Assembly: GCA_030824555.1 (NCBI GenBank)
Contig: JAVBXK010000019.1
Coordinates: forward strand, 1 to 64,000
Length of the DNA: 64,000 nucleotides
From: a bacterium
GTDB lineage: Bacteria; Pseudomonadota; Gammaproteobacteria; Burkholderiales; Burkholderiaceae_C
Reading direction: 5' to 3'
In this document: in pieces, positions 1,483 to 57,080 of the stretch
Layout of the letters: each line of letters starts with the position of its first letter
How positions within the stretch are numbered: position 1 is the stretch's first letter
The notes under the pieces: model-generated
Databases searched by the model: none
The model's input: the letters and a program-made list of their open reading frames with translations, nothing else
What the model was told of the DNA's origin: nothing
Program-made: the position numbers and the translations under genes

Positions 1483-1647
1483 GCAACCAGCCAACGCAGG
1501 GCGACGGTTCTGCGGCGGCTGGGGTAGAGAACATGAGAACGGGCAGGGGAGGCATCCCCTGCGCCAAGAGCCTGAGAAACCGCCCCGACGGGTCAACCCA
1601 ATCTCAGCCTCCAGGCCACCAGCAGGTGGCGCAAAGCATTCATTTTT

Positions 1648-1703
1648 TGGTAGCTGAAATCGCTTGTCAATCAAGCGGTGGGGGCGTTTTTTTCTTAAAT
1701 TTT
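1648..1703 (+). repeat. Palindromic interspersed element, copy 1 (upstream of fba)
   Basis: Contains TAGCTG, then the perfect stem CGCTTG-TCAAT-CAAGCG at 1661-1677, then GGGGGC and a T-rich tail. It ends a few bases before the fba ribosome binding site. It is one of twelve related copies in this window. Confidence 0.7.
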
Positions 1704-2786: not shown

Positions 2787-2896
2787 GGGGTTGTTCACAC
2801 GGGGCAACACGGTGGGGTGATGAGAAAGCCTGCCTGGCTGCATGCTCGGGCCAAGTGTCCCAATGCCTGTCAGGTGTTTTGCCCATGTGCACAGCC

Positions 2897-3982: not shown

Positions 3983-4041
3983 GGTGGCAGGCGAACGTGT
4001 ACTGTGCAAAAATACAGTGTACCGCTCCCAAAGCAACCAAG

Positions 4042-4692
4042 ATGGACCTCTTCGACGATTTGCCCCCGCACCCCGATGCCGCTCCCACGCCCATCGCGCC
4101 CGGCGCGGTGCTGCTGCACGGTTTTGCGTGCGACGAGGCGGTTGCCCTGTTGCAAGCCGTCGAGGTCGTTTTGCAGCAAGCCCCCTTGCGTCACCTGCAA
4201 ACCCCTGGCGGCTACACCATGTCGGTGGCCATGAGCAATTGCGGGTCGCTGGGTTGGGTGTCCAGCGTCAACGGTTACCGTTACACCGCGTGTGACCCGG
4301 CATCCCACCGGCCGTGGCCGGCCATGCCCGCGTGCCTGCTGGACCTGGCCCAGCGCGCTGCCGCGCAGGCGGGCTACCCGCAGTTTGCCCCCGATGCCTG
4401 TTTGATCAACCAATACGTGCCCGGTGCCAAACTTTCGCTGCACCAGGACAAGGACGAGCTGGACCTGCTCGCGCCCATCGTCTCTGTGTCGCTGGGCTTG
4501 CCTGCGGTGTTTCTGTTTGGCACATCCAGCCGCAAAGACCGCCCGCAGCGCCACCGCTTGGTGCACGGTGACGTGGTGGTGTGGGGCGGGCCGTCGCGCC
4601 TGGCGTACCACGGGGTGAACGCGCTGGCCGATGGCACGCATGCGCTGCTGGGGCAGCGCAGGTTGAACCTGACGTTTCGGTGCGTGCGGTAG
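4042..4692 (+). CDS. alkB: Alpha-ketoglutarate-dependent DNA dealkylase AlkB
   Basis: Oxidatively demethylates 1-methyladenine and 3-methylcytosine in DNA using Fe(II) and 2-oxoglutarate. At 216 residues it is the same length as E. coli AlkB and collinear with it: TPGGYTMSVAMSNCG at 54-68, the iron ligands H134-x-D136 in LHQDKDE, H190, and the 2-oxoglutarate-binding arginines around R207 and R213 in RRLNLTFR. The ATG at 4042 gives the standard MDLF N-terminus. An upstream in-frame extension (from 3997) is probably untranslated. It is divergent from a YcaQ/AlkX-like glycosylase gene. Confidence 0.96.
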   Translation: MDLFDDLPPHPDAAPTPIAPGAVLLHGFACDEAVALLQAVEVVLQQAPLRHLQTPGGYTMSVAMSNCGSLGWVSSVNGYRYTACDPASHRPWPAMPACLLDLAQRAAAQAGYPQFAPDACLINQYVPGAKLSLHQDKDELDLLAPIVSVSLGLPAVFLFGTSSRKDRPQRHRLVHGDVVVWGGPSRLAYHGVNALADGTHALLGQRRLNLTFRCVR

Positions 4693-20570: not shown

Positions 20571-20634
20571 AAAATTGCAATAAAAAAATGCACCTTACGC
20601 TTTCTTGTGAAGCTTTGTTTGCTATTGAAAATAT
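20571..20634 (-). repeat. Palindromic interspersed element, copy 2
   Basis: Read on the minus strand it has ATAGC, AAGCTT, a loop, AAAGCG, AAGGTGC and a run of seven T. It fills the gap between the LivF- and LivH-type genes. Confidence 0.65.
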
Positions 20635-32331: not shown

Positions 32332-35052
32332 TCAGTCGGCCAGCGCACGGTTGACCACTTCGCGCACGTCGTTGCTCAGGCTCTGGCAGGCGGCCACGCG
32401 CTTGATGGCTTCTTGTGCGGCGGTTCGATACGGCGTGGCCAGCTTCTTCCAGCGGTCGAGTGCGCGCGCCAGGCGTGCGGCCACCTGGGGGTTGAAGCCG
32501 TCCAGCTCGACCACCAGTTCGCTCCAGAACACGTAACCCGCCGCGTCGATCCGGTGAAAGCCCGCCGGGTTGCCCTGGCAGAACGTGCTGACCAGGCTGC
32601 GCGCCCGGTTCGGGTTTTTAATGTTGAAGTCAGGGTGGCTCATCAGGCGCTTGACCAATGGCAGCACCTGGCCGTTGCGGTCTATGCAGCCAGCCTGCAA
32701 CCCAAACCACTTGTCGATGACCAGCGCCTCGTCTTTGAACAGCGCGTGAAAGCGCTGCAGCGCGTTCTGCGCCAATGGGTGCCCGGCGTTGACCAGTGCG
32801 GCCACGGCACCGAACCGGTCGGTCATGTTGGACGCGTCTTTGAAGCGTTGCAACGCTTTGCCGGGCCACACTGTCTCGCCACGCAGGGTGGCTGCCAGGC
32901 ACAGGTGTTGCAGTGCCTGGTTGGCCAGCGCACGGCGGCCACTGCTGACGGCGTCTGGTGAATAGCCGCCGATGGTCTGGTGTGTGTCGTAGGCCCATTG
33001 CCAGTCGTCGTACAGCGCCAGTGCCAGGGCTTCGCGCATGGCTTCACGCACGGCGTGTATGCGTTGGGGGTCGACCACGTCAAGCTGTTCGGCGATGTAG
33101 GTCTCGGACGGCAGGGTCAGCACCAGTTCCTTGAATGCCGGGTCAAGGTCGGGGTGACGCAACACCGACCGCATGGCCTGAATATATGAATCATTCAGTG
33201 CCTCACCGCTTGATGGTGTTGAATTGTTTGCTATCAACCCAATGGCTGTTCTGAGTGCCAGGCGTTGACCGGCTTCCCAGCGGTTGAAGGCGTCTTCGTC
33301 GTGGGCCAGCAGGGTCAGCAGCTGGGCATCGGTCAGATCGATATCGAGTTGAACGGGTGCACTGAAGCTGCGCAGCAGCGAGGGTACGGGCGCAGCCGTC
33401 AGGCCTGCAAACACCAGCGTCTGGCTGGCCTCGGTCAGCACAAAGGTGCGGGTGTCGGCGGTGGCAGGGGGCTCGCCTTCCAGTTGCACCGGCAGTGGCT
33501 GGCCGCTCTGGCTGAGCAAGCCGATGGCCATGGGGATGACGAAGGGTGCTTTGTCCGGCTGACCCGGGGTCGCCGCGCAGCTCTGGTTGAACGTGAGGGC
33601 ATAGGTGCCCGACTCGGCATCAAAATGACCGGCAGCAGACACGCGTGGCGTACCCGCCTGTGCATACCAGCGCTTGAACTGGGGCAGGTGCCTGGCCAGC
33701 GGGCTCTGTGGGTTGGCATCGGCTATGGCACCCGCAAAGTCGTCACACGTCACAGCCTGGCCGTCGTGACGCTCGAAATACAGCTTCATGCCCTTCGCAA
33801 ACCCTGCGCGGCCGTTGTCAGATGCATTGGCTGTGGCCAGCGACTGCATCATGCGCACCACTTCCGCGCCTTTTTCGTACACCGTCACGGTGTAGAAATT
33901 GTTGATCTCCATGTAGCTGTCGGGCCGCACGGGGTGGGCCATGGGGCCCGCGTCTTCAGGGAACTGTGCGGTGCGCAGCACACGCACGTCCTCAATGCGC
34001 TTGACGGCGCGGGCTGACGGGCTGCCCGCCATGTCCATGCTGAATTCCTGGTCGCGGAAAACGGTCAGGCCTTCTTTCAGACTGAGCTGAAACCAGTCAC
34101 GGCAGGTGACGCGGTTGCCGGTCCAGTTGTGGAAATATTCGTGGGCTACCACGCTTTCCACGTTGCCAAAGTCCACATCGGTGGCGGTGGCGGGGCTGGC
34201 CAACACGTATTTGGTGTTGAAAATGTTCAGGCCCTTGTTCTCCATCGCGCCCATGTTGAAGTCGCTGGTGGCGACGATCATGAAGCGCTCCAGGTCCAAT
34301 GGCAGGCCAAAGCGGGTTTCGTCCCAGGCGATGGATGCCATGAGAGAGTTCATGGCGTGCTCGGTCTTGTCGAGGTCGCCCGGACGCACGTACACCTGCA
34401 ACAGATGGTCGGTGCCGGTGCGGCTGCGGATGGGCTGGGTGCGGCACACCAGGCTGCCTGCCACCAGCGCAAACAGGTAGGCGGGCTTTTTGTGGGGGTC
34501 CACCCACTTGGCAAAGTGGCGCCCGTCTTCAAGCAAGCCTTCTTCCACCAGGTTGCCGTTGGACAGCAGCACGGGGTATTTGGCTTTGTCGGCACGCAGC
34601 GTGACGGTGTAGCTGGCCATCACGTCCGGGCGGTCCAGGAAGTAGGTGATGCGGCGGAAACCTTCTGCTTCGCACTGGGTGAAGAAGGTGTCCTGGCTGA
34701 CGTACAGGCCCATCAGCTTGGTGTTTTTGGCCGGGGCGCAGGTGGTGAAGATTTCGAGGTCGAACGCCTCGTCACCTTCTGGCAGGTTGGCCAGCACCAG
34801 CTGGCTGCCATCCATTTTGAAGCTGGTGCCCTGGCCGTTGACCAGCACGCGGGCCAGGTTCAGGTCTTCGCCGTCCAGCGTCAGGGGTTGTGCCGGGACA
34901 TCGGGGTTGCGGCGCAGGCGCATGCGGTTGAGCACGCGGGTTTTTGCCGGGTCCAGGTCGAACGTCAGGTCAACGGTGTCGATCCAGAACGCTGGCGCTG
35001 TGTAGTCCTCACGCTTGACGAGTACGGACGGGCCTTCTCGAAATGACAACAT
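32332..35052 (-). CDS. pepN: Aminopeptidase N
   Basis: Zinc M1-family aminopeptidase, 906 residues, that removes N-terminal residues from peptides in the cytoplasm. It has the GAMEN substrate motif at 268-272, HEYFHNW (H304, E305, H308) and the downstream glutamate in the NRVTCRDWFQLSLKEGLTVFRDQEF block, and the long helical C-terminal domain. A copy of the palindromic element lies in frame at about residues 604-625 (IGLIANNSTPSSGEALNDSYI), in the C-terminal helical region, where it should be tolerated. Confidence 0.95.
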   Translation of the reverse strand: MLSFREGPSVLVKREDYTAPAFWIDTVDLTFDLDPAKTRVLNRMRLRRNPDVPAQPLTLDGEDLNLARVLVNGQGTSFKMDGSQLVLANLPEGDEAFDLEIFTTCAPAKNTKLMGLYVSQDTFFTQCEAEGFRRITYFLDRPDVMASYTVTLRADKAKYPVLLSNGNLVEEGLLEDGRHFAKWVDPHKKPAYLFALVAGSLVCRTQPIRSRTGTDHLLQVYVRPGDLDKTEHAMNSLMASIAWDETRFGLPLDLERFMIVATSDFNMGAMENKGLNIFNTKYVLASPATATDVDFGNVESVVAHEYFHNWTGNRVTCRDWFQLSLKEGLTVFRDQEFSMDMAGSPSARAVKRIEDVRVLRTAQFPEDAGPMAHPVRPDSYMEINNFYTVTVYEKGAEVVRMMQSLATANASDNGRAGFAKGMKLYFERHDGQAVTCDDFAGAIADANPQSPLARHLPQFKRWYAQAGTPRVSAAGHFDAESGTYALTFNQSCAATPGQPDKAPFVIPMAIGLLSQSGQPLPVQLEGEPPATADTRTFVLTEASQTLVFAGLTAAPVPSLLRSFSAPVQLDIDLTDAQLLTLLAHDEDAFNRWEAGQRLALRTAIGLIANNSTPSSGEALNDSYIQAMRSVLRHPDLDPAFKELVLTLPSETYIAEQLDVVDPQRIHAVREAMREALALALYDDWQWAYDTHQTIGGYSPDAVSSGRRALANQALQHLCLAATLRGETVWPGKALQRFKDASNMTDRFGAVAALVNAGHPLAQNALQRFHALFKDEALVIDKWFGLQAGCIDRNGQVLPLVKRLMSHPDFNIKNPNRARSLVSTFCQGNPAGFHRIDAAGYVFWSELVVELDGFNPQVAARLARALDRWKKLATPYRTAAQEAIKRVAACQSLSNDVREVVNRALAD
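33177..33238 (-). repeat. Palindromic interspersed element, copy 5, inside pepN
   Basis: Read with pepN: ATAGC, AAACAATTC, a loop, CAAGCGGTGAGGCA and an AT-rich tail. The codons here are AT-rich in a GC-rich gene. The frame stays open. Confidence 0.6.
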
Positions 35053-35207
35053 GGGATTTCCTTTTCTTGTGGGTGTGGGAAGCCGCCCGAACAGGGCTGG
35101 TCAACGGAGCTGGCCAACTGGGCTGAGTCTTGGGGCTCGATTCGGGGCGGCTGTCGTCGTTGGGCGTGCGGTGGTGGTGCGAGGTGTACAGCGTGTGGGC
35201 CGCAGCC

Positions 35208-36312
35208 TCACACGCCTTGTTTCAGGCTGGCTTCAATGAACGCGTCCAGGTCACCGTCCAGCACCTTTTGCGTGGCTGAAATCTCGACGTTGGTGCGCAG
35301 GTCCTTGATGCGGCTGTTGTCCAGCACATAAGAGCGAATCTGGTGGCCCCAACCCACGTCTGTCTTGGTGTCTTCCAGCTTTTGCTGTTCTTCCTGTTGC
35401 TTGCGCAACTCGTGGTCGTACAGGCGGCTGCGCAGGCGTTTCCAGGCCACGTCGCGGTTGCTGTGTTGGCTGCGGCCGTCCTGGCACTGCACCACGATGC
35501 CGGTGGGGATGTGCGTCAGGCGCACGGCCGAATCGGTCTTGTTGATGTGCTGGCCGCCCGCACCCGAGGCACGGAAAGTGTCGGTGCGCACATCCGCCGG
35601 GTTGATGTTGATTTCGATCGAGTCGTCGATTTCGGGGTATACGAATACGCTGGCAAAACTGGTGTGGCGGCCGCCCGAGCTGTCGAACGGGCTTTTGCGC
35701 ACCAGGCGGTGCACGCCGGTTTCGGTGCGCAGGAGGCCAAAGGCGTATTCGCCCTCAACCTTGATGGTGGCGCTTTTGATGCCTGCGGTGTCGCCAGGGG
35801 TTTCGTCTTCCAGTGTGGCCTTGAAGTCTTTGCGTTCAGCGTACTTCAGGTACTGGCGCAGCAGCATGCTGGCCCAGTCGCACGCCTCGGTGCCACCGGC
35901 CCCGGCCTGGATGTCGAGGAAGCAGTTCAGTGGATCGGCCGGGTTGTTGAACATGCGGCGGAATTCCAGCTGCTCCACGGTACCGCCCAGCTTGGCGGCT
36001 TCGGCCTCGATGGTCATCAGGCCCGCGTCGTCGCCTTCTTCCTTGGACATCTCGAACAGCTCCGAGTTGTCGGCCAGTTCGCTGGTGAGTGTGTCCAGCA
36101 CCACCACCACGTCTTCGAGCGATTTTTTCTCTTTGCCCAGGTCCTGTGCCCGCTTGGGGTTGTCCCAGACTTTTGGGTCTTCCAGCGCGCTGGTGACTTC
36201 GCTCAGTTTGCGTGCTTTGGCATCGTAGTCAAAGATACCTCCGTAACTCGACGACCCTGGTGCTCAGGTCAACGAGGCGGTTGCTGATGGTATTGATGCG
36301 TTCTGCTTCCAT
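35208..36312 (-). CDS. prfB: Peptide chain release factor 2, with programmed +1 frameshift
   Basis: Recognises UGA and UAA stop codons and releases the peptide through the GGQ motif ([18 protein letters not shown]). Translation starts at the ATG at 36312 and runs 27 codons to CTT, followed by an in-frame TGA at 36231-36229. Skipping one T continues at GAC to the stop at 35208, giving 367 residues, close to the E. coli length. The stimulating Shine-Dalgarno-like GGAGG sits just before TAT-CTT-TGA-C, as in the classical site. This makes RF2 control its own level. lysS, often downstream of prfB, is not here. Confidence 0.95.
36229..36246 (-). promoter_or_regulatory. prfB autoregulatory frameshift site
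   Basis: GGAGG followed by TAT-CTT-TGA-C. The internal Shine-Dalgarno and slippery CTT-T direct the +1 shift when RF2 is scarce. Confidence 0.9.
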
Positions 36313-36385
36313 GATCGGTGTCTGCTTTTGTATGGGCTAAAGCCAAGATTTTCTCACGGCGGGTCAGCGCGCCGAGCAACCCGGC

Positions 36386-37351
36386 TCAAGTTGACGTGAT
36401 GTGGGCTTCGATCAGGCGGGCAACGGCCTCGGGCTGGTCGTGGTGCAGCATGTGGCCAGCGTCGTCAATCACCTCGATGCGGACGTTGGGCACGCTTTGC
36501 AGACGCTGGTGGTACTCGTCCAGCGTGTAGCGGTTTTGCCACCACTTGGCCATCTGGTTGTGGCTGGCTTCCACCGCCAGTGTGGGCGCGGTGATGCGCT
36601 GGTAAATGGCTTGCACCTCTTCCACCCGGTACAGCTGCGGGTTGACCAGCTTGTGCCCGGCTTCACCCAGGATGCGCCACTGGCCTTGCGCGTCGGGGGC
36701 TGCCCACTGGCTGGCCAGCCACAGTGCCTTGTCGGGGGGCAGGCGCGGGTTGGTTTTTTGCAACCGCTGGGCCACGGCTTGATGGCTGGGGTAGGTCTTG
36801 AGGTCTTTGTCGCCCTGGCGCAGGGCTTTCAGTTCGTCCATCCACAGGGCGTAACGGCCGGGGGCCTGTGCGGGTTTGGCCGCAGGCAGGCCAAAACCCT
36901 CCAGGTTGACCAGCTTGCGGATGCGCTCGGGACGGATGCCCGCATACAGCATGACCACGTTGCCGCCCATGCTGTGGCCCACCAGGTCCACCGGTGCGTC
37001 GGGCGAAAAGTGGTCCAGCAGCGCGTCCAAGTCGGCCAGGTAGTCGGGGAACCAAAAGCAGTCGGCCCCGCCAGACGGTGTGAGACCGAAGCCGCGCCAG
37101 TCGGGTGCAATCACCCACCGCTCGGTGGCCATGGCATCCACCACAAACTGGTACGACGCCCCCACGTCCATCCAGCCGTGCACCATGACCAGCGGCGCAA
37201 CGCCGGGTTGCGGCTGGCCCCACTGCAGCACGTGGTAGGGCAGGGTGCGCACGGGCAGGGTGCTGCTGCGGGCGGCACGCCGAGGTGAGTAGGCCGGCAC
37301 GGTCAGTACGGGTTCTTCCGGGGAAATGGGGGGCTGTTGGGTGTCGTTCAT
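36386..37351 (-). CDS. Alpha/beta-fold hydrolase
   Basis: A 321-residue hydrolase with VMVHGWMDVGASYQF (oxyanion region), APDWRGFGLT, the nucleophile in VGHSMGGNV, and the histidine in DDAGHMLHH. There is no signal peptide. I start at the ATG at 37351. An in-frame TTG at 37369 is less likely. Substrate unknown. It stands alone upstream of prfB on the same strand. Confidence 0.85.
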   Translation of the reverse strand: MNDTQQPPISPEEPVLTVPAYSPRRAARSSTLPVRTLPYHVLQWGQPQPGVAPLVMVHGWMDVGASYQFVVDAMATERWVIAPDWRGFGLTPSGGADCFWFPDYLADLDALLDHFSPDAPVDLVGHSMGGNVVMLYAGIRPERIRKLVNLEGFGLPAAKPAQAPGRYALWMDELKALRQGDKDLKTYPSHQAVAQRLQKTNPRLPPDKALWLASQWAAPDAQGQWRILGEAGHKLVNPQLYRVEEVQAIYQRITAPTLAVEASHNQMAKWWQNRYTLDEYHQRLQSVPNVRIEVIDDAGHMLHHDQPEAVARLIEAHITST

Positions 37352-37465
37352 GGGCAGCAATGTAAGCAAAATGGAGGGCTGCGCCAGTCAGTCCAGCGAC
37401 ATGCCCTTGTTTGCTTGCGCCTTACGCTGCTGCCTGCTTGTTCCCGCCACCACGGATGCACCCAC

Positions 37466-39607
37466 ATGACCCCTGACACCAAGGCTTTGCAGCCCCTCAA
37501 CTCGTTCGCAGGGCCGCCCCAAGAACGATTGCACCCCCTTGGGGGGCCTGGCGAAGCCAGGGTTGGGGGCGATGTCAACTCGTTCGCAGGGCCGCCCCAA
37601 GAACGATTGCACCCCCTTGGGGGGCCGGGCGAAGCCAGGGTTGAGGGCACCAGCACTCGACATGACCACCACACCGCCATGCAGGCGCGTTTCGGGTGGC
37701 AGGTGCCCACGCACCTCAACATGGCGCATGCCTGCTGCGTGCGCTGGGCTTTGCACCCGGAGCATGCTGAAAATATAGCTGTCATCGCAGATGGTGTAAG
37801 CGGTAAGGTCACTTTTCATACCTATTTTGATTTGTGGCAAAGCGCCTGCCGCCTGTCGAACGTGCTGGGCGGCCTGGGCGTGCACCGGGGCGACCGCGTG
37901 GCCATCGTGCTGCCGCAGCGCTTTGAAACCGCTGTGGCCTACATGGGGGTGATGCAGGTCGGCGCGGTGGGCATGCCGCTGTCCATGCTGTTCGGGCCGG
38001 AGGCGCTGGCCTACCGCTTGCAAGACAGCGCGGCCACCGTGGCCATATGCGACCAGGGCGGGTTGGGTCAGTTGTTGCAAGTGCGTGCCGATTGCCCCAG
38101 CCTGCGGCACATTTTGGTGGTGGGCGATGCGCCGACGAGCGATTCGTCCGCCGCTGCCGACCCCATGCTGTTGCCCTGGCACGAAGCCCTGGCAGGCGCC
38201 GCCAGCACCTACACCGCCGTGGACACCCTGGCCGACGAACCTGCCGTGTTGATTTACACCAGCGGCACCACGGGCAACCCCAAGGGCGGGCTGATTCCGC
38301 ACCGTGCGCTGGTGGGCAACCTGAGCGGGTTTGTGTGCAGCCAGAACCTGTTCGGCTTTGCGCCGGGGCTGCAGGGCGAACTGCCGTTTCCCAGTGCGGC
38401 ACCGCGCCGTCGCGCGGCCGAGGGCGACGCACCGGTCCGCACCGCAGCAGGGCCGTCTTGCGCGTATGACGTGTCGGCCACGCCCAACTTGCCCACCGGC
38501 AGCCAAGCCGTGTTCTGGTCGCCCGCCGACTGGGCGTGGACGGGCGGGCTGATGGACGCGCTGTTGCCCACGCTGTACTTTGGCCGCCCCATCGTGGCGT
38601 ACAACGGGCGCTTCAGCCCCGAGGTGGCGTTCAATCTGCTGCAGCGCCACGGTGTGACGCACAGCTTTTTGTTCCCCACGGCGCTCAAAGCCATGATGAA
38701 GGCCTACCCCCAGCCCCGCAAGCAGTTCACTTTTGCCCTGCAAGGCCTGATGAGCGCGGGCGAGGCCGTGGGCGACGCCGTGTTTGCCTACTGCCGCGAA
38801 CAACTGGGCGTGGTGGTGAACGAGATGTTCGGCCAGACCGAGGTGAACTACATCGTCGGCAACTTCTGCCTGGGCCAGGTGTGGGGCGATGACGCTTCGC
38901 TGGGCACGGCAACCCACCCCGCCCAACTGGGCCTGGGCTGGCCCGCCAAACCCGGCAGCATGGGCAAGGGCTACCCCGGCCACCGGGTGAGCGTGATCGA
39001 CGACGACGGCCACGAGTGCCCCAACGGCGTGCCCGGCGAGGTGGCGGTGCACGCCCAGAGCCCCAACGGGCAGCCCGACCCCATCTTCATGCTGGGCTAC
39101 TGGCGCCAGCCCGAGGCCACGCTGGCCAAATTCACCGGCCCGCGCGAGGCCAGCTGGTTCCGCACGGGCGACATGGCCGTGCGCGATGCCGACGGGTACT
39201 TGTGGTACCACGGGCGGGCCGACGACGTGTTCAAGTCAGCCGGTTACCGCATTGGTCCCAGCGAAATTGAAAACTGCCTGGTCAAACACCCCGCCGTGCT
39301 GAACGCGGCCGTGGTGCCCAAACCCGATGCCGAGCGCGGTGCACTGGTCAAGGCCTATGTGGTGCTGTCGCCTGATTACATAGCTGCTAACCTATGCCAA
39401 ATAAGCGCTGAAGGCATTTTTGACGCTGAAACCATGGCCCCGCTGGCGGCCGAGCTGCAAGCGCACGTCAAAACGCTGCTGGCCCCCTACGAGTACCCCA
39501 AGGAGATCGAGTTTGTTGAGCACCTGCCCATGACCACCACCGGCAAGGTGCAGCGCCGCATCCTGCGTTTGCAGGAAGAAGCCCGGGCCCAAGCTGCCAA
39601 AGGTTGA
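37466..39607 (+). CDS. Acyl-CoA synthetase (AMP-forming), enlarged by repeat insertions
   Basis: ANL-superfamily enzyme that activates a carboxylic acid with ATP and CoA. Motifs include LIYTSGTTGNPKG (near 260-272), the aromatic WSPADWAWTGGLMDALLP, NEMFGQTE, WFRTGDMAVRDADGYLWYHGRADDVFKSAGYRIGP, and the C-terminal lysine in TTTGKVQRR. It resembles medium-chain acyl-CoA synthetases. The start is uncertain. ATG 37466 includes a translated 78-base tandem repeat, while ATG 37679 begins right before family-like sequence (RFGWQVPTHLNMAHACCVRWA). Two palindromic elements lie in frame at about residues 101-122 and 637-653, so the gene may be a hot spot for small insertions. Confidence 0.85.
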   Translation: MTPDTKALQPLNSFAGPPQERLHPLGGPGEARVGGDVNSFAGPPQERLHPLGGPGEARVEGTSTRHDHHTAMQARFGWQVPTHLNMAHACCVRWALHPEHAENIAVIADGVSGKVTFHTYFDLWQSACRLSNVLGGLGVHRGDRVAIVLPQRFETAVAYMGVMQVGAVGMPLSMLFGPEALAYRLQDSAATVAICDQGGLGQLLQVRADCPSLRHILVVGDAPTSDSSAAADPMLLPWHEALAGAASTYTAVDTLADEPAVLIYTSGTTGNPKGGLIPHRALVGNLSGFVCSQNLFGFAPGLQGELPFPSAAPRRRAAEGDAPVRTAAGPSCAYDVSATPNLPTGSQAVFWSPADWAWTGGLMDALLPTLYFGRPIVAYNGRFSPEVAFNLLQRHGVTHSFLFPTALKAMMKAYPQPRKQFTFALQGLMSAGEAVGDAVFAYCREQLGVVVNEMFGQTEVNYIVGNFCLGQVWGDDASLGTATHPAQLGLGWPAKPGSMGKGYPGHRVSVIDDDGHECPNGVPGEVAVHAQSPNGQPDPIFMLGYWRQPEATLAKFTGPREASWFRTGDMAVRDADGYLWYHGRADDVFKSAGYRIGPSEIENCLVKHPAVLNAAVVPKPDAERGALVKAYVVLSPDYIAANLCQISAEGIFDAETMAPLAAELQAHVKTLLAPYEYPKEIEFVEHLPMTTTGKVQRRILRLQEEARAQAAKG
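37497..37648 (+). repeat. GC-rich 78-base tandem repeat, two copies
   Basis: Copies begin at 37497 and 37575 and differ at two positions. Each contains a CCTGGC-GAA-GCCAGG (or near) hairpin and a CCCCAAG/CTTGGGG stem. Seventy-eight is a multiple of three, so the acyl-CoA synthetase frame stays open across both. Confidence 0.85.
37769..37832 (+). repeat. Palindromic interspersed element, copy 6, inside the acyl-CoA synthetase gene
   Basis: ATAGCTG, a degenerate left arm (TCGCAG), a loop, TAAGCGGTAAGGTC and an ACTTTTC tail. The left arm of the stem has decayed. In frame it encodes IAVIADGVSGKVTFHTYF. Confidence 0.55.
39376..39425 (+). repeat. Palindromic interspersed element, copy 7, inside the acyl-CoA synthetase gene
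   Basis: ATAGCTGCTA, a loop, ATAAGCGCTGAAGGC and ATTTTTG. In frame it encodes IAANLCQISAEGIFD, an AT-rich patch in a GC-rich gene. Confidence 0.65.
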
Positions 39608-39824
39608 TGCGCCTTGCGCCAGCGTGTGTGCTGGCGGCGCGTTAACCTTGTGCACTGCGCGCACTTGCGTTTGATTCGTTACGGTTGGCAACCATTTTCG
39701 CAACCCGGCTTGCCCGTTTATGTTTGCCCTTTTGGGTTGACCCTTTCGTTCAGTTTTCTTGTTCGGCTTCTTTGTTCGTTCTTTTCGTGCCTCGTTTTTT
39801 GCAACCGTTCACACCGCTCCCAAC
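39608..39824. other. T-rich leader region of the aldo-keto reductase gene
   Basis: About 217 bases. The second half is a plus-strand pyrimidine-rich stretch of short T-runs. I see no gene, hairpin or clear promoter in it. Confidence 0.5.
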
Positions 39825-40895
39825 ATGAACCTCATTCCACTTGGCCAGTCAGGCCTGTCCGTCACCCCCATCTGCCTGGGCACCATGACCTTTGGCGAAC
39901 AAGTCAACCAGGCCGATGCCCATGCCATCCTCGACCGCTCGCTTGAGCGCGGCGTGAATTTTCTGGACACGGCCGAGATGTACGCCGTGCCCGCCAAGGC
40001 CGAAACCTGTGGGGCCACCGAAACCATCATTGGCAACTGGTTTGCCGCCAACCCCGGCGCGCGCCAGAAAGTGGTGCTGGCCACCAAAGTGGCCGGGCCG
40101 TCGCGCGGCATGCCGTGGATCAGGGGCGAGGTGTCGGGCCTGACCAAGGCCGAAATCCTCAACGCCTGCGACGCCAGCCTGCGCCGCCTGCAGACCGATG
40201 TCATCGATTTGTATCAAATTCACTGGCCAGCACGCAACACACCTGCATTCGGTGCTATTTATTTCGACCCCAAGAAGGACAAGCCCTGCGCCAGCATCCA
40301 CGAGCAGCTCGAAGCTATGGCCGAGCTGGTCAAAGCGGGCAAGGTGCGCGCCATCGGCCTGTCGAACGAAACACCTTATGGTGTGCACGAGTTCGTGCGC
40401 CTGGCCGAACAGCATGGCTTGCCCCGCGTGGCCACCGTGCAAAACCCCTATTGCCTGATCAACCGCAGTTGGGAAAACGGGCTGGACGAAACCTGCCACC
40501 ACCTGAACGTGGGCCTGCTGGCCTACTCGCCCTTGGGCTTTGGGCTGCTGAGCGGCAAGTACGACGACGGCGGCATCCACAAACCCGCGTCAGCCGACGG
40601 CCAGAAAGGCCGCATGGCCCTGTACGACAGCATGAAAGCCCAACGCTGGGGCCGCCCCGAGTCACTGGCCGCCGCACAGCAATACAACACGCTGGCGCGC
40701 GAGCACGGCCTCACCCCGGCGCAACTGGCGCTGGCGTTCTGCTACCGCAACGCCAAAGTGGCCAGCACCATCATCGGCGTGACCAGCCTGACCCAGCTGG
40801 ACGAATGCCTGGACGCCTGGAGCGTGCAACTGTCACCCGAGCTGCTGAAAGCCATCGACGCCATCCGCTGGCAACACCGCGACCCGGCGCAGTGA
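39825..40895 (+). CDS. Aldo-keto reductase, Tas family
   Basis: NADP(H)-dependent reductase of 356 residues, collinear with E. coli Tas: GTMTFGEQVNQADAHAILD, the tyrosine in DTAEMYAVPAKAET, KVAGPSRGMPWIRG, LYQIHWP, GLSNETPYGVHEF and the cofactor segment VASTIIGVTSLTQLDE. The ATG at 39825 gives the family start. An upstream in-frame extension is T-rich and not protein-like. A palindromic element copy lies at the variable loop after HWP (residues about 128-148), where Tas proteins differ in length. Confidence 0.9.
   Translation: MNLIPLGQSGLSVTPICLGTMTFGEQVNQADAHAILDRSLERGVNFLDTAEMYAVPAKAETCGATETIIGNWFAANPGARQKVVLATKVAGPSRGMPWIRGEVSGLTKAEILNACDASLRRLQTDVIDLYQIHWPARNTPAFGAIYFDPKKDKPCASIHEQLEAMAELVKAGKVRAIGLSNETPYGVHEFVRLAEQHGLPRVATVQNPYCLINRSWENGLDETCHHLNVGLLAYSPLGFGLLSGKYDDGGIHKPASADGQKGRMALYDSMKAQRWGRPESLAAAQQYNTLAREHGLTPAQLALAFCYRNAKVASTIIGVTSLTQLDECLDAWSVQLSPELLKAIDAIRWQHRDPAQ
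40207..40266 (-). repeat. Palindromic interspersed element, copy 8, inside the aldo-keto reductase gene
   Basis: On the minus strand: AAATAGC, a degenerate stem, GCTGGCCAGTGAATTTGATAC. It is diverged, but it keeps the ends of the element and the AT-rich codons. It encodes part of LYQIHWPARNTPAFGAIYF. Confidence 0.45.
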
Positions 40896-42571: not shown

Positions 42572-42671
42572 GCGGTTTTCCGTTGTGGCCGAAGGTGCCG
42601 GGCTGTCGTCGCTGTCGGCGCTGCTTGTGGTGGGGTGTATCCACCAACACGCTGTGCATTCGTGGGTTCTG

Positions 42672-42727
42672 AATGCATAGCTGCAAAGTACCGTATATCA
42701 AGCGGTAAAGGCCAATTTCATTCAAAG
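42672..42727 (+). repeat. Palindromic interspersed element, copy 9 (upstream of plsY)
   Basis: ATAGCTG, a degenerate left arm, ATATCAAGCGGTAAAGGCC and AATTTCATTC. Its tail runs into the AAAGGA Shine-Dalgarno of plsY. Confidence 0.65.
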
Positions 42728-43779: not shown

Positions 43780-44481
43780 TCAGGGCTTGCGTTCCAGCGT
43801 CATCTGATCGTTCTGGCGCACCATCTGGAAGCGCGTCAGAAAGCTGTTGCCCAGCAGCACAAACGGCATGGGTTGGGGCAGCACCACGGCTTTCACGTCG
43901 CGCACCTCGGCATCGCCCAGGCGAACCTTGTCAAGCCGGTGTTCGTACCCGTCCACCGTGCCGTTGGCGGTGTTCATGCGCACGCGGGTGCCTTGCTGGG
44001 CTTTCAGGCCAATTCGCTGCGCCTCGGCCTGGCCCAAAGTGACCCAGGTGGCCCCTGTGTCCACCAGAAAACTGACCGTTTGGCCGTTGATGCTGCCCAG
44101 TGACTGAAAGTGGCCCTGGCTGTCGGCGGTCAGCACCACTTTGTTGCCGCTGCCTGGGGCCTGAGCGGATGGGGCCATGGTGACGTTGAAGGGTGTTTCG
44201 CCCAGTTTCAGCAGCAGGGCTTGGCCCTTCACCTCGACTGTGGCCTCGCCACCCGCCACCTGCAGCACCTTCACGCCAGCGTGCGACTGGCCTGTGGCCA
44301 CGAATTTGGGTGGTGCACCATCGACCACCAGCAACGCTTTGTCGTCCGACACACCTGCCAGGTTGACCGATTGGGACCGTGCGTTCACCAGCGGTGCGCA
44401 CAGCAGGGCGGCCAGGGCACCGTGCAACCAGGCGGCACTGCGCGGACACGCCCGGCGTGGGTCAGACGCGGCCCGTGCCAC
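43780..44481 (-). CDS. Retropepsin-like aspartic protease, secreted
   Basis: A 233-residue protein of the retropepsin-like (clan AA) family. A signal peptide ends near NARS-QS. FLVDTGATWVTLGQ carries the active aspartate D141, and VLLGNSFLTRF is the conserved C-terminal glycine block. It works as a dimer in the periplasm. Substrate unknown. It starts with GTG at 44481 and overlaps the upstream HD-GYP gene by 20 bases, so it is translationally coupled. Confidence 0.82.
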   Translation of the reverse strand: MARAASDPRRACPRSAAWLHGALAALLCAPLVNARSQSVNLAGVSDDKALLVVDGAPPKFVATGQSHAGVKVLQVAGGEATVEVKGQALLLKLGETPFNVTMAPSAQAPGSGNKVVLTADSQGHFQSLGSINGQTVSFLVDTGATWVTLGQAEAQRIGLKAQQGTRVRMNTANGTVDGYEHRLDKVRLGDAEVRDVKAVVLPQPMPFVLLGNSFLTRFQMVRQNDQMTLERKP

Positions 44482-45748
44482 GGTCGGCCCCGGTTTTGGT
44501 GAAGGCCAATTGCCTGAGCATGAGGTCGGTGTTCAGGCGCACGCGAATGGTCGAGGCTGACACACCTTGCACCACCGCCACGTCGGGTTTGGATGTGTTG
44601 TGCAGGCGGGGCTCTGAAATGGGTTCGTCGCGCTTGTTCAGCACGCTGGCCACGTAGGGCTCGTTGGGCTTGGCACCCTTGCGCAGCACCACCGCGGTTT
44701 CGCCGTTGGCCAGTTTGACAAAAGTGCCCGCCGGGTGCAGCCCCAGCAGCATCATGAGGGCCAGCCCCACTTCGTCGTGCCCGGCGGCACCGGGCTGCAC
44801 GATGGCCGAGCGTGCGGCGTCTTTCGACTCGCGGCCTGCGCGTGACACGCGGGGGCTCATGGCTGCGGTGTAGCGGTCCACCACCTGCAGGATGCGCGCC
44901 AGCCGCTCGGCCGGTGGGCGCTCGACCAGTGGCACGCCTGCGGGCAAATCGTCGTGGTGTTTGAACACCACGTTCAGCCACAGCGAATCGGTTACGCCTG
45001 CAGCGTGCAACAGACGCACGCCCTCAGCTGCGTGCTTGTCAATCTGGACTTGTTGTATGGGCGAGGGTCGCTGCTTCTGATTGGCCAGCGCGTCTTGCAG
45101 GGCGGTCATGCCCACGTTCATGGTCAGGGCGGCGCGGGTCAGACTGGCGCTCTCAGCCGGGCTGAGTTTGAGCGGTGTGGCCAGCAGGTGCACCACCGTG
45201 GCGGTCAGCAGCGAGTGCAGGGCGCTGTAACCCGTGAAGGCCGTCACGGCACGGTGAATCAGCAGGAACAGGGCGGCTTCGCGGTCGCGGTTGAGCAGCT
45301 GCTGCAGGAACATGTCAATGGTGGTGCCGATGCGCCCCACGGCATCGGATGCCGGTTGGCCGCCCAGTGCCAAGCTGCTCAGCAGCGCACGCAGCCGCGT
45401 TTCCGCCTCGATCCAGCCTTCGGGCAGCGTGCCTTTGACGACTTCCTTGGTTTCGGTTTCATTGAACGACACGTACTTGTCGATGTCCTTGAGGGCTGCA
45501 TCGCGTCGTGTGGCCTCGTTCAGGCCGCTCATCAGCACTTTGACGGCTTCGTCGGATTCGTCGTAATCGACGTACACCGCGCGGCGCTTTTGCAAGGCTT
45601 CGAGCGCGTGGTGGTTCTCGATCCTCAGCCCCTTGGCCAGCAGCACCTGACCGCGTTCGTCACGCAGCGTGAAGCGCAGGGCAATGCCCACGTGCAACTT
45701 CTCGGTTGACACGGCAATCAGCTCGCCTTTGGATGAGGGGTCGGCCAT
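44462..45748 (-). CDS. Degenerate HD-GYP-domain protein (second of a tandem pair)
   Basis: A 428-residue protein with an N-terminal region of about 120 residues and an HD-GYP-like domain. The residues expected to bind metal are mostly missing. The HD pair is replaced by ALTMNVG (near 207-213), HSLLTATVVHLLA keeps one histidine (H178), and the HHE plus GYP region reads HHDDLPAG (264-270). So it is likely a pseudo-phosphodiesterase that binds or senses rather than cuts cyclic di-GMP. The PilZ-like tail RKGAKPNEPYVASVLNKRDEPI is shared with its paralogue, 16 bases upstream. Confidence 0.75.
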   Translation of the reverse strand: MADPSSKGELIAVSTEKLHVGIALRFTLRDERGQVLLAKGLRIENHHALEALQKRRAVYVDYDESDEAVKVLMSGLNEATRRDAALKDIDKYVSFNETETKEVVKGTLPEGWIEAETRLRALLSSLALGGQPASDAVGRIGTTIDMFLQQLLNRDREAALFLLIHRAVTAFTGYSALHSLLTATVVHLLATPLKLSPAESASLTRAALTMNVGMTALQDALANQKQRPSPIQQVQIDKHAAEGVRLLHAAGVTDSLWLNVVFKHHDDLPAGVPLVERPPAERLARILQVVDRYTAAMSPRVSRAGRESKDAARSAIVQPGAAGHDEVGLALMMLLGLHPAGTFVKLANGETAVVLRKGAKPNEPYVASVLNKRDEPISEPRLHNTSKPDVAVVQGVSASTIRVRLNTDLMLRQLAFTKTGADRGTGRV

Positions 45749-45764: not shown

Positions 45765-47087
45765 TCAGTTCATTGCAACGTCCAGCCTGCTGGCTGACTG
45801 GTGGCGCAGCATCTGTTCTTCGTTCAGTCGCACCCGGATGCTGGAGCCCGACAAACCGGTCTCCACCGCCAATTCAGGCAACTCGGTGCTGAACACGCGG
45901 GGTGCCAGCACGGGTTCGCCCTGTCGGTTCAGCACATTGGCCACCACGGGTTCGTTCAGCCGCAAGCCGCGGCGCAGCACCACGGCGGCGTCGCCCCGCT
46001 TGAGCTGCACAAACGTGCCCGGCGGAAACAGGCCCAGGTTCTGCATGAGGTCAAGGCCCACTTCGTCATGGTCAGCCGTGCCGGGCGAGCGGATGACGGC
46101 CTTGACCGCATGGCGCGATTCGCGCCCGGGCCGCGAGCCGCGCGGGCTCATGGCCGCCGAGTAGCGGTCGATCACCTGCAACACCTTGGCCAGCTTTTCG
46201 GCGGTGGGCCGGTCGTTGATGGCGGGGCAGGGGGGCAGGTCGTCGTGGTGTTGGCCCACCACGGCCAGCCAGATCGGGTCGGTCACGCCTGCGCGGTGCA
46301 GCAGGCGCATGCTTTCGCGCGAATGTGCGTCAATGGCCAGCAACTGCTCCTGGGTGGGCTTGTTTTTTTGCCCAGCCATGAGGTCTTGCAGCGGTTTGAT
46401 GGACACGTTCATCGTCAGCGCGGCACGCACCAGGCTGACGGTTTCGGCGTCGCTGATGGGCAAGCGGCTGGCGGCATCCCAAGCCAGGGCAGCGCACAGC
46501 AGCGAATGCAGGGTGCTGTAGCCGTTGAAGTGTGTGACCGAGCGGTTGAACAACAGGAACAGGGCGGCCTCGCGGTCGCGCTGCATCAGCGCCACAAAGC
46601 GCGCTTCAATGATCTCCAGCCGCTTGATGGCTTTTTGTGCAGCCTCGCCACCTACCGCAATGCTGCCCAGCACGGCACCCAAGTTGGATTCCAGGTCGGT
46701 CCACAGTTCGGGCAGCGTGCGGCGGGCAGCGGCCTCGGCTTCGGCCCTGAGCTGCGCTTGCTGTGTGGCCTCCGGCGACGGTGTGGTCGCCATGATGCGC
46801 TGCGTGGACAGCTCTTGCATTTTGGTCAGCGGTGCACCGCGGCGTGTGGCTTCGTTGAAGCTGGACAGCACGGCGCGCGCGGTTTCGCGCAGCGACGCCT
46901 CGTCTGTGAACAGGGCCGGGTGCTCGCGCAACGACTGGAGCAGCGTGGGCGTGTTGATGACCTGGTGTTTGGCCAGCAACAAATTGCCACCCTCGTCGTA
47001 CAAAGGTGTTTGCAGCGCCATGCCCAGCTTCAGTGACACGGAGGGCACCGGCTGGAGGGAACTGGGGGGAATGATCTTGGCCGACAT
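45765..47087 (-). CDS. Degenerate HD-GYP-domain protein (first of a tandem pair)
   Basis: A 440-residue paralogue of the next gene, collinear along its whole length. Its HD block reads ALTMNVS (223-229), HSLLCAALAWDA keeps H194, IDAHSRESMRLLHRAG keeps H255, and the second histidine pair is HHDDLPP (280-286). The GYP is gone. RRGLRLNEPVVANVLNRQGEPV near the C-terminus matches the paralogue. It lies 32 bases downstream of yajQ. No signal peptide or membrane segment. Function unknown. Probably a regulatory partner in the cyclic-di-GMP network. Confidence 0.75.
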   Translation of the reverse strand: MSAKIIPPSSLQPVPSVSLKLGMALQTPLYDEGGNLLLAKHQVINTPTLLQSLREHPALFTDEASLRETARAVLSSFNEATRRGAPLTKMQELSTQRIMATTPSPEATQQAQLRAEAEAAARRTLPELWTDLESNLGAVLGSIAVGGEAAQKAIKRLEIIEARFVALMQRDREAALFLLFNRSVTHFNGYSTLHSLLCAALAWDAASRLPISDAETVSLVRAALTMNVSIKPLQDLMAGQKNKPTQEQLLAIDAHSRESMRLLHRAGVTDPIWLAVVGQHHDDLPPCPAINDRPTAEKLAKVLQVIDRYSAAMSPRGSRPGRESRHAVKAVIRSPGTADHDEVGLDLMQNLGLFPPGTFVQLKRGDAAVVLRRGLRLNEPVVANVLNRQGEPVLAPRVFSTELPELAVETGLSGSSIRVRLNEEQMLRHQSASRLDVAMN

Positions 47088-48751: not shown

Positions 48752-49009
48752 TCAGCATGGGGCGGCTTCGGTTGTGCCACCGCTGGAAAAGACACCATCT
48801 GTGTTGCTGCGGAGGCACTGACATGGGTCGATCGCGAACATGACGTCGACCGCAGGACACGTCACATGGCAGTGAGGTGGCGCATGTTCGTCGGCATGGA
48901 CGTGAATTTGCAGTGCACCGCAACGCGCAACGCGGGTACCATCCGCAAAGCTGTGTTCAAGCTGTTCGCCGGTAGGCTCTTCCACCTGATCAAAAAAGGT
49001 ACACGCCAT
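48752..49009 (-). CDS. DUF4160-like small protein, probably truncated
   Basis: An 85-residue reading frame whose first 60 or so residues match the DUF4160 pattern (GALQIHVHADEHAPPHCHVTCP), a small family often found beside DUF2442. After AIDPCQCLRS the sequence loses the family's helical tail, which suggests a truncated remnant. No ribosome site is seen before the ATG at 49009, and the frame overlaps the start of the next plus-strand gene by two bases. Confidence 0.4.
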   Translation of the reverse strand: MACTFFDQVEEPTGEQLEHSFADGTRVARCGALQIHVHADEHAPPHCHVTCPAVDVMFAIDPCQCLRSNTDGVFSSGGTTEAAPC

Positions 49010-51245: not shown

Positions 51246-51313
51246 AAAAAATATGAATAAAAAGTGCTTCTACCGCTTTATCAGTAAGCGGTAGAAGCTA
51301 TGAATTTCATATT
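51246..51313 (-). repeat. Palindromic interspersed element, copy 10
   Basis: The best-preserved copy: a perfect 13-base stem GCTTCTACCGCTT / AAGCGGTAGAAGC with a 7-base loop (51266-51298), and ATATGAATAAAAAG and GCTATGAATTTCAT flanks. Confidence 0.8.
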
Positions 51314-51379: not shown

Positions 51380-51690
51380 GCCGCCCAAGGCCGGGGTGGG
51401 GCGGGCTGCGGGCTTCATGCTTGCCCCGCCAGGGGCGAGGTTCCCTGCCAACAACATTGCCCCCACGCTCCCTGCGGTCGCTGCCCCCCGAGGGGGCGTT
51501 CGCCGCCTTGGGGCGGCCCGGCGGCGGCTCAGGCCATGGGGTTGGTGCTGCGGAACTCGCTACACGCCCCTTGGGCGCTCCGCTCAAACAGCCGCAGCAA
51601 GTCAGAAGTTGAAGCGTGCTGCGCACGCCGACCCCATGGCTGTGCTTCTCAGCGTCGCATCACAAGCCCCCAGCCCGTCCCACCCCTGCC
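51380..51690. repeat. GC-rich intergenic repeat block
   Basis: Contains GCCCCC-CGA-GGGGGC and a CCGCCTTGGGGCGG hairpin, a motif related to the CTTGGGG stem of the repeat at 37497. I recognise such blocks as frequent between genes in Comamonadaceae. I cannot set the ends exactly. Confidence 0.5.
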
Positions 51691-51713: not shown

Positions 51714-51779
51714 ATTACAAGGAAAAAGTGCCTATTTCGCTTTATTGGTAAGCGTTTATAGCTATGAATTTTGTGTATT
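51714..51779 (-). repeat. Palindromic interspersed element, copy 11
   Basis: Minus strand: ATAGCTATAAA, CGCTT, loop ACCAATA, AAGCG, AAATAGGC and ACTTTTT. Stem of five base pairs plus one. Confidence 0.7.
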
Positions 51780-53394: not shown

Positions 53395-54779
<1,385 letters not shown>

Positions 54780-55760: not shown

Positions 55761-57080
55761 ATGGAACATTTGACGACACTGGCCGACTGGTTGACCCATT
55801 GTGAACAGCTGCACCCCAAGGGTGTGAACGGCATTGAACTGGGGCTGGACCGCATCCGCACGGTGGCCCAGCGGCTGGCATTGAAGTTCGACTGCCCGGT
55901 GTTCACCGTGGCGGGCACCAATGGCAAGGGGTCAACGTGCGCCATGCTGGAAAGCATCCTGCTGCAGGCGGGGTACAGCGTGGGGGTGTTTTCGTCGCCG
56001 CACCTGGTGCACTTTGAAGAACGCCTGCGCATCGGCGGCGAGGCCGTAGACGGCAACCGGCTGGTGGCGGCCTTTCGTGACGTGGAAGTGGCCCGCACCC
56101 AGCCAGGTGCCGAGGTGCAGCTCACGTATTTCGAATTCACGACGCTGGGCATCTTGCTTGAAATGTCCCGCAGCCGCTTGGACGCGGTGGTGCTGGAAGT
56201 GGGGTTGGGCGGGCGGCTGGATGCCGTGAACCTGATCGACACCGACTGCGCCATCATCACCAGCATCGACCTGGACCACACCGAACTGCTGGGCACTGAC
56301 CGCGAAAGCATCGGCCGCGAAAAAGCCGGCATCGTGCGCACCGGCAAACCGGTGGTGGTGAGCGACCCCGTGCCGCCGCAAAGCGTGGTGGACCATGCGA
56401 TGGAGGTGGGGGCCGACCTGTGGCGTGTGGGGCGCGACTTCAACACCTCGGGCGACAAGCAGCAGTGGGGCTGGTCCGGGCGCGGGCGCCGCTACAGCGG
56501 GCTGGCCTACCCGGCCCTGCGGGGGGCCAACCAGTTGCTGAACGCCGGTGGCGTGCTGGCGGCGCTGGAGGCCATGCGCGAGCAATTGCCCGTGACGGCA
56601 CAGGCCATCCGCAACGGTTTGGCTTTTGTCGAATTGCCCGGGCGGTTTCAAATTGTGCCGGGCCAGCCTGCGCTGGTGCTGGACGTGGCCCACAACCCCC
56701 ATTCGGTGGCGGCACTGGCACTCAACCTGGATGCCATGGGTTTCTTCCCGGCCACACATGCCGTGTTCGGTGCCATGGCCGACAAGGATTTGGCCCCCAT
56801 GCTGGCCAAGGTGGCCCCGGTGATTGACCACTGGTACCTGACCGACTTGCCCACCCCCCGTGCCGCCACGGCCGAGGCGCTGGAACAGAAGCTTGCCAGT
56901 CTGGCAGGGCGCAAGGCCGCCGTGGCGGGGCAGTTCGCTTCGCCGCAGGCTGCGCTGGACGCAGCCGTGGCTGCGGCAGACCCCGCTGATAGAATCGTCG
57001 TCTTCGGTTCCTTCTACACAGTGGGGGGTGTTTTGCTGAATGGCACCCCGCGACTTGCTGCCAAACACCTCTCGTCCTGA
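55761..57080 (+). CDS. folC: Bifunctional folylpolyglutamate/dihydrofolate synthase
   Basis: Adds glutamate to folates. The 439-residue protein has VFTVAGTNGKGSTCAMLESIL (P-loop), the GVFSSPHLVHFEERLRIGG block, TSIDLDHTELLG and VLDVAHNPHSVAALA. The ATG at 55761 gives MEHLTTLADWLTHCEQLHPKG, as in relatives. Confidence 0.94.
   Translation: MEHLTTLADWLTHCEQLHPKGVNGIELGLDRIRTVAQRLALKFDCPVFTVAGTNGKGSTCAMLESILLQAGYSVGVFSSPHLVHFEERLRIGGEAVDGNRLVAAFRDVEVARTQPGAEVQLTYFEFTTLGILLEMSRSRLDAVVLEVGLGGRLDAVNLIDTDCAIITSIDLDHTELLGTDRESIGREKAGIVRTGKPVVVSDPVPPQSVVDHAMEVGADLWRVGRDFNTSGDKQQWGWSGRGRRYSGLAYPALRGANQLLNAGGVLAALEAMREQLPVTAQAIRNGLAFVELPGRFQIVPGQPALVLDVAHNPHSVAALALNLDAMGFFPATHAVFGAMADKDLAPMLAKVAPVIDHWYLTDLPTPRAATAEALEQKLASLAGRKAAVAGQFASPQAALDAAVAAADPADRIVVFGSFYTVGGVLLNGTPRLAAKHLSS

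Follow-up and report, generated by a model that had tools for sequence, protein, structure and literature searches.

In-frame palindromes within bacterial proteins have so far been explained as tolerated insertions, and a report on Wolbachia, going by its title, reportedly belongs to the same literature. In the passages cited, the Rickettsia palindromic elements (RPEs) are 105-146 or ~150 bp long and are given as insertions (PMC2229807, PMC10969869); a review that places them inside Rickettsia genes calls similar protein evolution in other prokaryotes conceivable (PMC10969869). Here we report on a shorter palindromic repeat in a 64,000-nt stretch of a Burkholderiaceae_C genome (contig JAVBXK010000019.1 of assembly GCA_030824555.1, positions 1 to 64,000; hereafter the window), where copies are translated within an acyl-CoA synthetase (ACS) and the aminopeptidase PepN. 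In two related genomes, where copies often lie inside ordinary enzyme genes, they mostly seem, from alignment with orthologues, to replace existing codons and to leave protein length little changed, in contrast to the insertions known from repeats of this kind.

A preliminary description of the window took Rickettsia to be the only known case, but in-frame copies of ERIC, of the 107-bp Correia element and of GTAG/CGTC REPs are already in print (PMC2229807, PMC3733652), the REPs being described there as insertions (PMC3733652). The Beta-proteobacterial repeat element (BRE) occurs in Betaproteobacteria including Rhodoferax and Polaromonas, with some copies within coding sequences; as far as the source is cited here, it is ~90 bp long, has ~69% GC in Bordetella, is partly tandem and is listed with 1-29 copies per Comamonadaceae genome (PMC3110155).

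The repeat family and its distribution

The family consists of palindromic repeats of ~45-55 nt, confirmed in the window's genome and in relatives with models of 44 and 55 positions. Copies from the window's genome give the consensus TTGATAGCTGCTAACGCTTATCAATAAAGCGGTAGAGGCACTTTTTATTTA; relatives hold a second subtype, the Rhodoferax type, with the consensus TGCTATTAATTTAATAGCTGCTCGCGCATATTCCACGAGCGCTAGAGGCCGATTT, in which the conserved boxes TGCTA, TAGCTGCTcGCGCA and GCGCTAgaGGC (A, B and C) are separated by two variable loops. The GC content is ~51% and both subtypes are predicted to fold into an imperfect hairpin; a covariation search found no pair with two-sided compensatory changes in either. 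An Rfam scan of the window at gathering thresholds returned five tRNAs only, and none of the papers listed by literature searches appeared to describe the family.

With a covariance model, at least 129 copies were found in the window's genome at E ≤ 0.1 among the 150 of 1841 candidates that were scored; blastn with one copy gave 44 matches there at E ≤ 10, a few of them one palindrome hit on both strands. Rhodoferax bucti and Comamonadaceae bacterium OS-4 hold at least 150 copies each (150 of 150 scored candidates at E ≤ 0.1), and none of 150 scored candidates matched at this threshold in a Hydrogenophaga and a Ramlibacter genome. The Rhodoferax subtype is held by 31 of 120 genomes (30 of 119 genera) of the family at E ≤ 1e-5. 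Plasmids and phages hardly carry the repeat: searched with the Rhodoferax-type consensus (blastn, E ≤ 0.01), phage records gave no match and plasmid records gave one, from Rhodoferax antarcticus.

Copies inside genes: frame, length and native residues

To count in-gene copies, the analysis sampled 400 kb from OS-4, two 200-kb stretches from R. bucti and twenty 20-kb stretches from the window's genome (464 kb including the window), with genes called by a simple codon-usage model (80-94% coding) in place of annotation and with repeat models trained on intergenic copies only. At E ≤ 0.01 the 800 kb of the two relatives hold 103 copies, of which 50 are intergenic, 41 lie inside genes and 12 at gene ends; the window's genome holds 46 (40, 4 and 2, respectively). 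Copies in coding sequence are therefore common in both relatives but scarce here. Reversed sequence gave no match at E ≤ 0.1, compared with 107 matches in the relatives and 56 in the window's genome; for OS-4 and R. bucti this control gave none at E ≤ 0.01 and one at E ≤ 1. The best in-gene copies in the relatives reach E 7e-13, and 30 of the 41 lie in the two stop-free frames, of which each strand has one (p 2e-7 when compared with one third). In-frame translation of a palindromic family within this lineage's enzymes, as first proposed, is borne out.

The host genes encode GcvT, GcvP, DNA polymerase I (PolA), a UvrD-family open reading frame (ORF), LpxB, TrpF, HemD, MurG, MurD, DapF, IcmF, galactarate dehydratase, molybdenum-enzyme subunits, glycerate kinase and penicillin-binding protein 1C, the last with two copies; FolC and guanine deaminase (GuaD) were identified as hosts by match to solved structures. 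The copy in the UvrD-family ORF (OS-4 L153, ORF 1874-4462, minus strand; L116, L122, L133) is common to three genomes and encodes YATNSGAARAYSTGAGSTL in a glycine-rich C-terminal stretch. Across OS-4 positions 2350001-2750000 (L141-L160) the element is found 29 times in plus and 15 times in minus orientation, a mild skew that the direction of replication might explain.

Host lengths were compared with those of element-free orthologues, located by tblastn in 0.8-Mb samples of one Hydrogenophaga and one Ramlibacter genome, neither of which yielded a copy. Twenty-one copies had an orthologue in these stretches, in 26 pairs (6 of 32 were dropped, with element E > 1e-3). For elements of 14-19 residues, the net change against the best outgroup was -1 residue in one copy, 0 in eight, 2 in one, 4 in four, 5 in two, 8 in one, 10 in one, 12 in two and 25 in one. 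Length change at element sites is rarely an element's worth: 17 of the 21 copies gain at most half of the element, and just one gains the 80% or more of it that a clean insertion would require. The resemblance to Rickettsia drawn in the preliminary description extends to in-frame copies in unrelated enzymes, but mostly not to insertion. The plainest case is folC, where R. bucti has GEAAPATKFVAAFADVESARCQKGSE and the window's element-free gene has GEAVDGNRLVAAFRDVEVARTQPGAE, at equal length.

Homologues in the PDB align without gaps across the element for guanine deaminase (6ohb, 2ood) and IcmF (4xc6), and differ by 1 residue for GcvP (9uz6), 2 for MurG (3s2u), 2 for MurD (8dp2) and 4 for FolC (1w78); a distant PepN chain (4quo) has 1 residue fewer at the pepN site. 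Gaps occur nearby, one of 8 residues lying 8 residues downstream of the MurD element and one of 3 residues ~20 residues upstream of the IcmF element. For these seven proteins the distant homologues argue against an ancient insertion that has eroded in the element-free genera. The IcmF match covers 3291 nt both in R. bucti and in all six element-free genomes searched; in the window's genome it is 27 nt longer. The IcmF copy lies just before the GTPase P-loop in the window's genome (L166:8840-8881) and in R. bucti (L190), and the protein here is 9 residues longer there.

In nine ungapped copies the outgroup residues are kept in register: the BLOSUM sum is 202, whereas 1846 shuffled pairings gave -108 ± 19 and never more than -48. 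Codon by codon, over the 547 positions of 11 copies, the gene agrees with the element and not the outgroup at 200, and with the outgroup and not the element at 95; these copies, like the genome groups used for the subtypes, were hand-picked after the sequences had been seen.

The subtypes differ by lineage at identical codons. At three codon-exact sites (ACS N, ACS C and pepN), the copies of the window's genome and of its nearest relative, L031, fit the model of own-genome intergenic copies better in six of six comparisons, one by a margin of just 1.8 bits; Rhodoferax-type copies fit the Rhodoferax model better in 12 of 12, and Polaromonas copies lean to it in 19 of 20, the other having no score. 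Forty-six sequences of these sites from 17 GC-rich genomes (Hydrogenophaga, Ramlibacter and similar) all score at most 1.4 bits. That the subtypes shift together means either that copies are homogenised within a genome or that all of them track a changing recogniser.

Within the window, the preliminary description had placed four in-frame copies in three enzymes (pepN, ACS at 37769 and 39376, a Tas-like reductase at 40207), in surface or variable-length regions. Three of the four sites stand, in two genes (Table 1), since the Tas segment is not a copy; it is conserved in 30 of 30 relatives aligned. By its match to the repeat model, the ACS C site at 39376 is a clear copy, the ACS N site at 37769 a moderate one and the window's pepN site a weak one. 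The orthologous pepN copy in R. bucti is strong (E 6e-10), and stronger copies stand at the ACS N codon position in Rhodoferax and Polaromonas. The frame is open at all three sites and is the same one (ATA GCx, read I-A), IAANLCQISAEGIFD being the literal translation at 39376.

Their settings differ. The ACS C loop is 16 residues longer here than in short-form orthologues and a distant paralogue, 4 residues longer than a Ramlibacter long form, and a short helix plus coil in a structure model from a 24-sequence alignment (mean pLDDT 74.6). Among 80 named loci it is short in many Hydrogenophaga, and most rows of Polaromonas, Rhodoferax and Curvibacter have 12 residues more; GC-rich long forms often carry no element signal, 35 of 58 long-loop rows scoring below 6 bits. 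Of the window's in-gene copies only this one fits a net insertion, and its long loop is common to many genera. The ACS N site is modelled on two beta strands (residues 33-39 and 45-48; block pLDDT ~90) and its length is unchanged in most of 45 relatives; at the pepN site nearly all of 36 relatives differ by 0-4 residues and two are ~7 longer. The expected surface or variable-length setting is therefore seen at 39376 and at neither 37769 nor pepN, and of the two ACS segments expected on loops the N-terminal one lies on strands. A quick ACS tree from which both sites were excluded, with support below 80% on 27 of its 78 inner branches, requires 7 changes at the N site and 10 at the C site; of the 27 occupied rows, 19 are occupied at both.

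Table 1. Genes and repeat copies in the window. E-values per 64 kb, from an nhmmer model of 36 own-genome sequences that left out the ACS and pepN copies.
Feature	Position	Strand	Remarks
ACS gene	37679..39607	+	ORF open from 37337, likely ATG 37679; translation, 80 orthologous loci
pepN, aminopeptidase N	32332..35052	-	translation and match to solved aminopeptidase N structures
ACS C-site copy, in frame, IAANLCQISAEGIFD	39376..39427	+	C-terminal variable loop; E 2.5e-7 at 39379-39421
ACS N-site copy, in frame, ENIAVIADGVSGKVTFHT	37770..37824	+	N-terminal beta hairpin; E 3.8e-4 at 37775-37819
pepN copy, weak or decayed, in frame, IANNSTPSSGEAL	33197..33239	-	near-constant loop length; E 0.023 at 33237-33200
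Tas-like reductase, claimed copy rejected	40207..40266	+	conserved DLYQIHWPARN-type segment; no match at E ≤ 10
Element-free equivalent of the R. bucti folC copy, in folC-like gene	56049..56102	+	same length, similar residues, GC-rich codons
Intergenic copy with 8-nt insertion	1637..1698	+	nhmmer
Intergenic copy	20579..20628	-	nhmmer
Intergenic copy	42671..42725	+	nhmmer
Intergenic copy nearest own-genome consensus	51253..51306	-	E 5.8e-15; top match of genome-wide search
Intergenic copy	51717..51770	-	E 2.2e-11
Copy at 5' edge of gene 53395-54726 (-)	54722..54773	-	E 2.1e-9

The window also holds an unrelated second repeat family: two adjacent, GC-rich 74-nt units at 37497-37648, 78 nt apart and 97% identical, with CCCCCTTGGGGGGC palindromes, fall within the open frame that precedes the probable start of ACS, and a related inverted copy lies at 51483-51523. 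Two adjacent 276-nt units at 49650-50201, 77% identical, lie within gene 49008-51179. The genes at 44462-45748 and 45765-47087, both on the minus strand, are probably paralogues, their stretches 44942-45299 and 46233-46590 being 77-78% identical and 1291 nt apart.

Proposed overwriting weighed against its rivals

Because of the length data, replacement is favoured over insertion as the way in which most copies came to lie in genes. We tentatively propose, with confidence just short of even, that short-tract copying, by overwriting codons, both spreads the repeat and keeps its copies homogeneous. Short tracts would be copied from other copies of the repeat, and a tract would usually replace a stretch of similar length at a place that already partly resembles the repeat, instead of being added to it. 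The copying step itself might be gene conversion or microhomology-assisted patch replacement, possibly assisted by hairpin-forming single strands, and purifying selection would remove patches in other frames and restore needed residues. Short-patch illegitimate recombination is a known process; a literature search for the phrase gave no match, and a broader one listed no paper with it in the title. Slightly more tentative still is the wider picture of an overwriting family, in which patches would be copied in register, protein length and many native residues kept, and all copies held in step by concerted evolution, with perhaps ~150-250 rewritten protein segments per genome, an extrapolation from the 41 in-gene copies counted in the 800 kb sampled from the two relatives.

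Several observations weigh against this proposal, and some of them are what transposition of whole elements into genes, of the Rickettsia or REP type, would leave if adjoining native codons were then lost until length was nearly restored. Zero length change is less frequent at the element than in control windows of the same alignments (137 of 198), so element sites change length above average. A KdtA-like gene gains 25 residues and the ACS C site 12 in R. bucti and 16 here against Hydrogenophaga; five further copies gain 8 to 12, namely 12, 10 and 8 and, against other loci, 9 in a CoA-lyase (versus three genomes including this one) and 8 in a short ORF. Compared with 8qzy and 5ha4, DapF has 10-11 extra residues, yet it is of the same length as in Ramlibacter, and an ancient insertion is a real worry for DapF and for ACS, whose outgroups possibly represent old insertions that have eroded. 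Among the matches listed, the intergenic copy at L091 14451-14498 makes its locus ~58 nt longer than an apparent empty site in a relative (L104), with flanks 74% identical, the clearest sign that plain insertion occurs too. The case for replacement comes from comparing diverged orthologues, as near-identical strains revealed no recent event. The nine ungapped copies were chosen after alignment, and two of them score below zero: the ACS N site against Hydrogenophaga, and RB1_66391, an ORF of no known family among the 21 copies, with a native-residue score of -1. Even so, we regard insertion followed by loss as rather improbable overall. The eight copies of exactly unchanged length speak against it, and in folC, murD, gcvP and guaD native residues stay in register within the element with few or no gaps, which makes insertion and deletion an unlikely source. 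A transposase partner was sought in one family, the Y1 (RAYT-type) transposases of PF01797, and no co-occurrence was seen: all 15 genomes have homologues, including the six that are element-free, so this family does not track the element, and among the copies listed none lies within ~15 kb of the R. bucti Y1 gene.

A functional DNA site, bound by a protein in chromosome organisation or DNA uptake for example, would account for much of the same evidence if sites build up in place by mutation and biased recombination and the dialect changes with its recogniser. The sites are length-neutral and keep native residues, and their subtype changes together at orthologous positions. Lineage dialects and intragenic copies are known from DNA uptake sequences (PMC3630211). 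Conservation in genes and between genes is 97 and 95% for box A, 88 and 89% for box B and 76 and 82% for box C, with the loops less conserved in genes (50%) than between them (62%); because boxes A and B are alike in both settings, such a site stays a serious rival to copying, if an unlikely one. About 55 nt is very long for it, and the intergenic insertion at L091 does not suit it. The commonest 10-mers of the repeat occur exactly in 35 places of the 800 kb and with one mismatch in ~40-70 places more than in Markov sequence; the sharp short core with an excess of perfect copies that marks uptake-type sites was not found in these counts. Intermediate sites are fewer than strong ones, 28 of 132 matches scoring 10-30 bits and 82 of 132 scoring 30-60 bits, and in R. 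bucti the ACS N site and pepN have in common the exact 20-mer CGCATATTCCACGAGCGCTA, which runs through a variable loop; both observations speak for copying of whole units and not for gradual build-up. Chance likeness of AT-rich coding patches to an intergenic repeat could be argued for the weak own-genome copies at 37769 and in pepN taken singly, and it does hold for Tas 40207. For the family it is refuted by the empty reversed-sequence controls, and the E-values of in-gene copies in the relatives and the frame bias leave it a very slim chance.

If overwriting by short-tract copying is right, repeats can rewrite proteins in place, a family of more than 100 copies changing codons mostly without changing length. 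One would then want to know what does the copying, and what maintains the copies in coding and non-coding DNA alike. A further caution is that an AT-rich patch in a genome of this kind is not necessarily the product of ordinary divergence; such patches could lead protein trees and annotation astray.

Comparison with known repeats

DNA uptake sequences (DUS/USS) have a short, sharp core, a feature absent here from the 10-mer counts. They resemble the present repeat in having sites inside genes and lineage dialects (PMC3630211). From BRE the repeat is set apart by description, not by letters, being ~45-55 nt long with ~51% GC and more than 100 copies. The GTAG/CGTC REPs come closer: these too are small many-copy hairpin repeats, some of them in frame, for example in UvrD and DNA polymerase I (PMC3733652), and here copies lie in PolA and in a UvrD-family ORF. 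They differ in the tetranucleotide at the hairpin foot, where the repeat family has no strict GTAG but a variable consensus ATAG (first position conserved in ~50-60% of copies, second in ~70-80%), and in the Y1 family, which does not track the present repeat. With the RPEs the family shares palindromic repeats in frame inside many unrelated conserved genes, and its 41 in-gene copies in a 0.8-Mb sample of two relatives are of about the order given for Rickettsia genomes. It differs from them in belonging to another class of bacteria, in its length of only ~45-55 nt and in the mostly small net change that its copies make to the length of their hosts.

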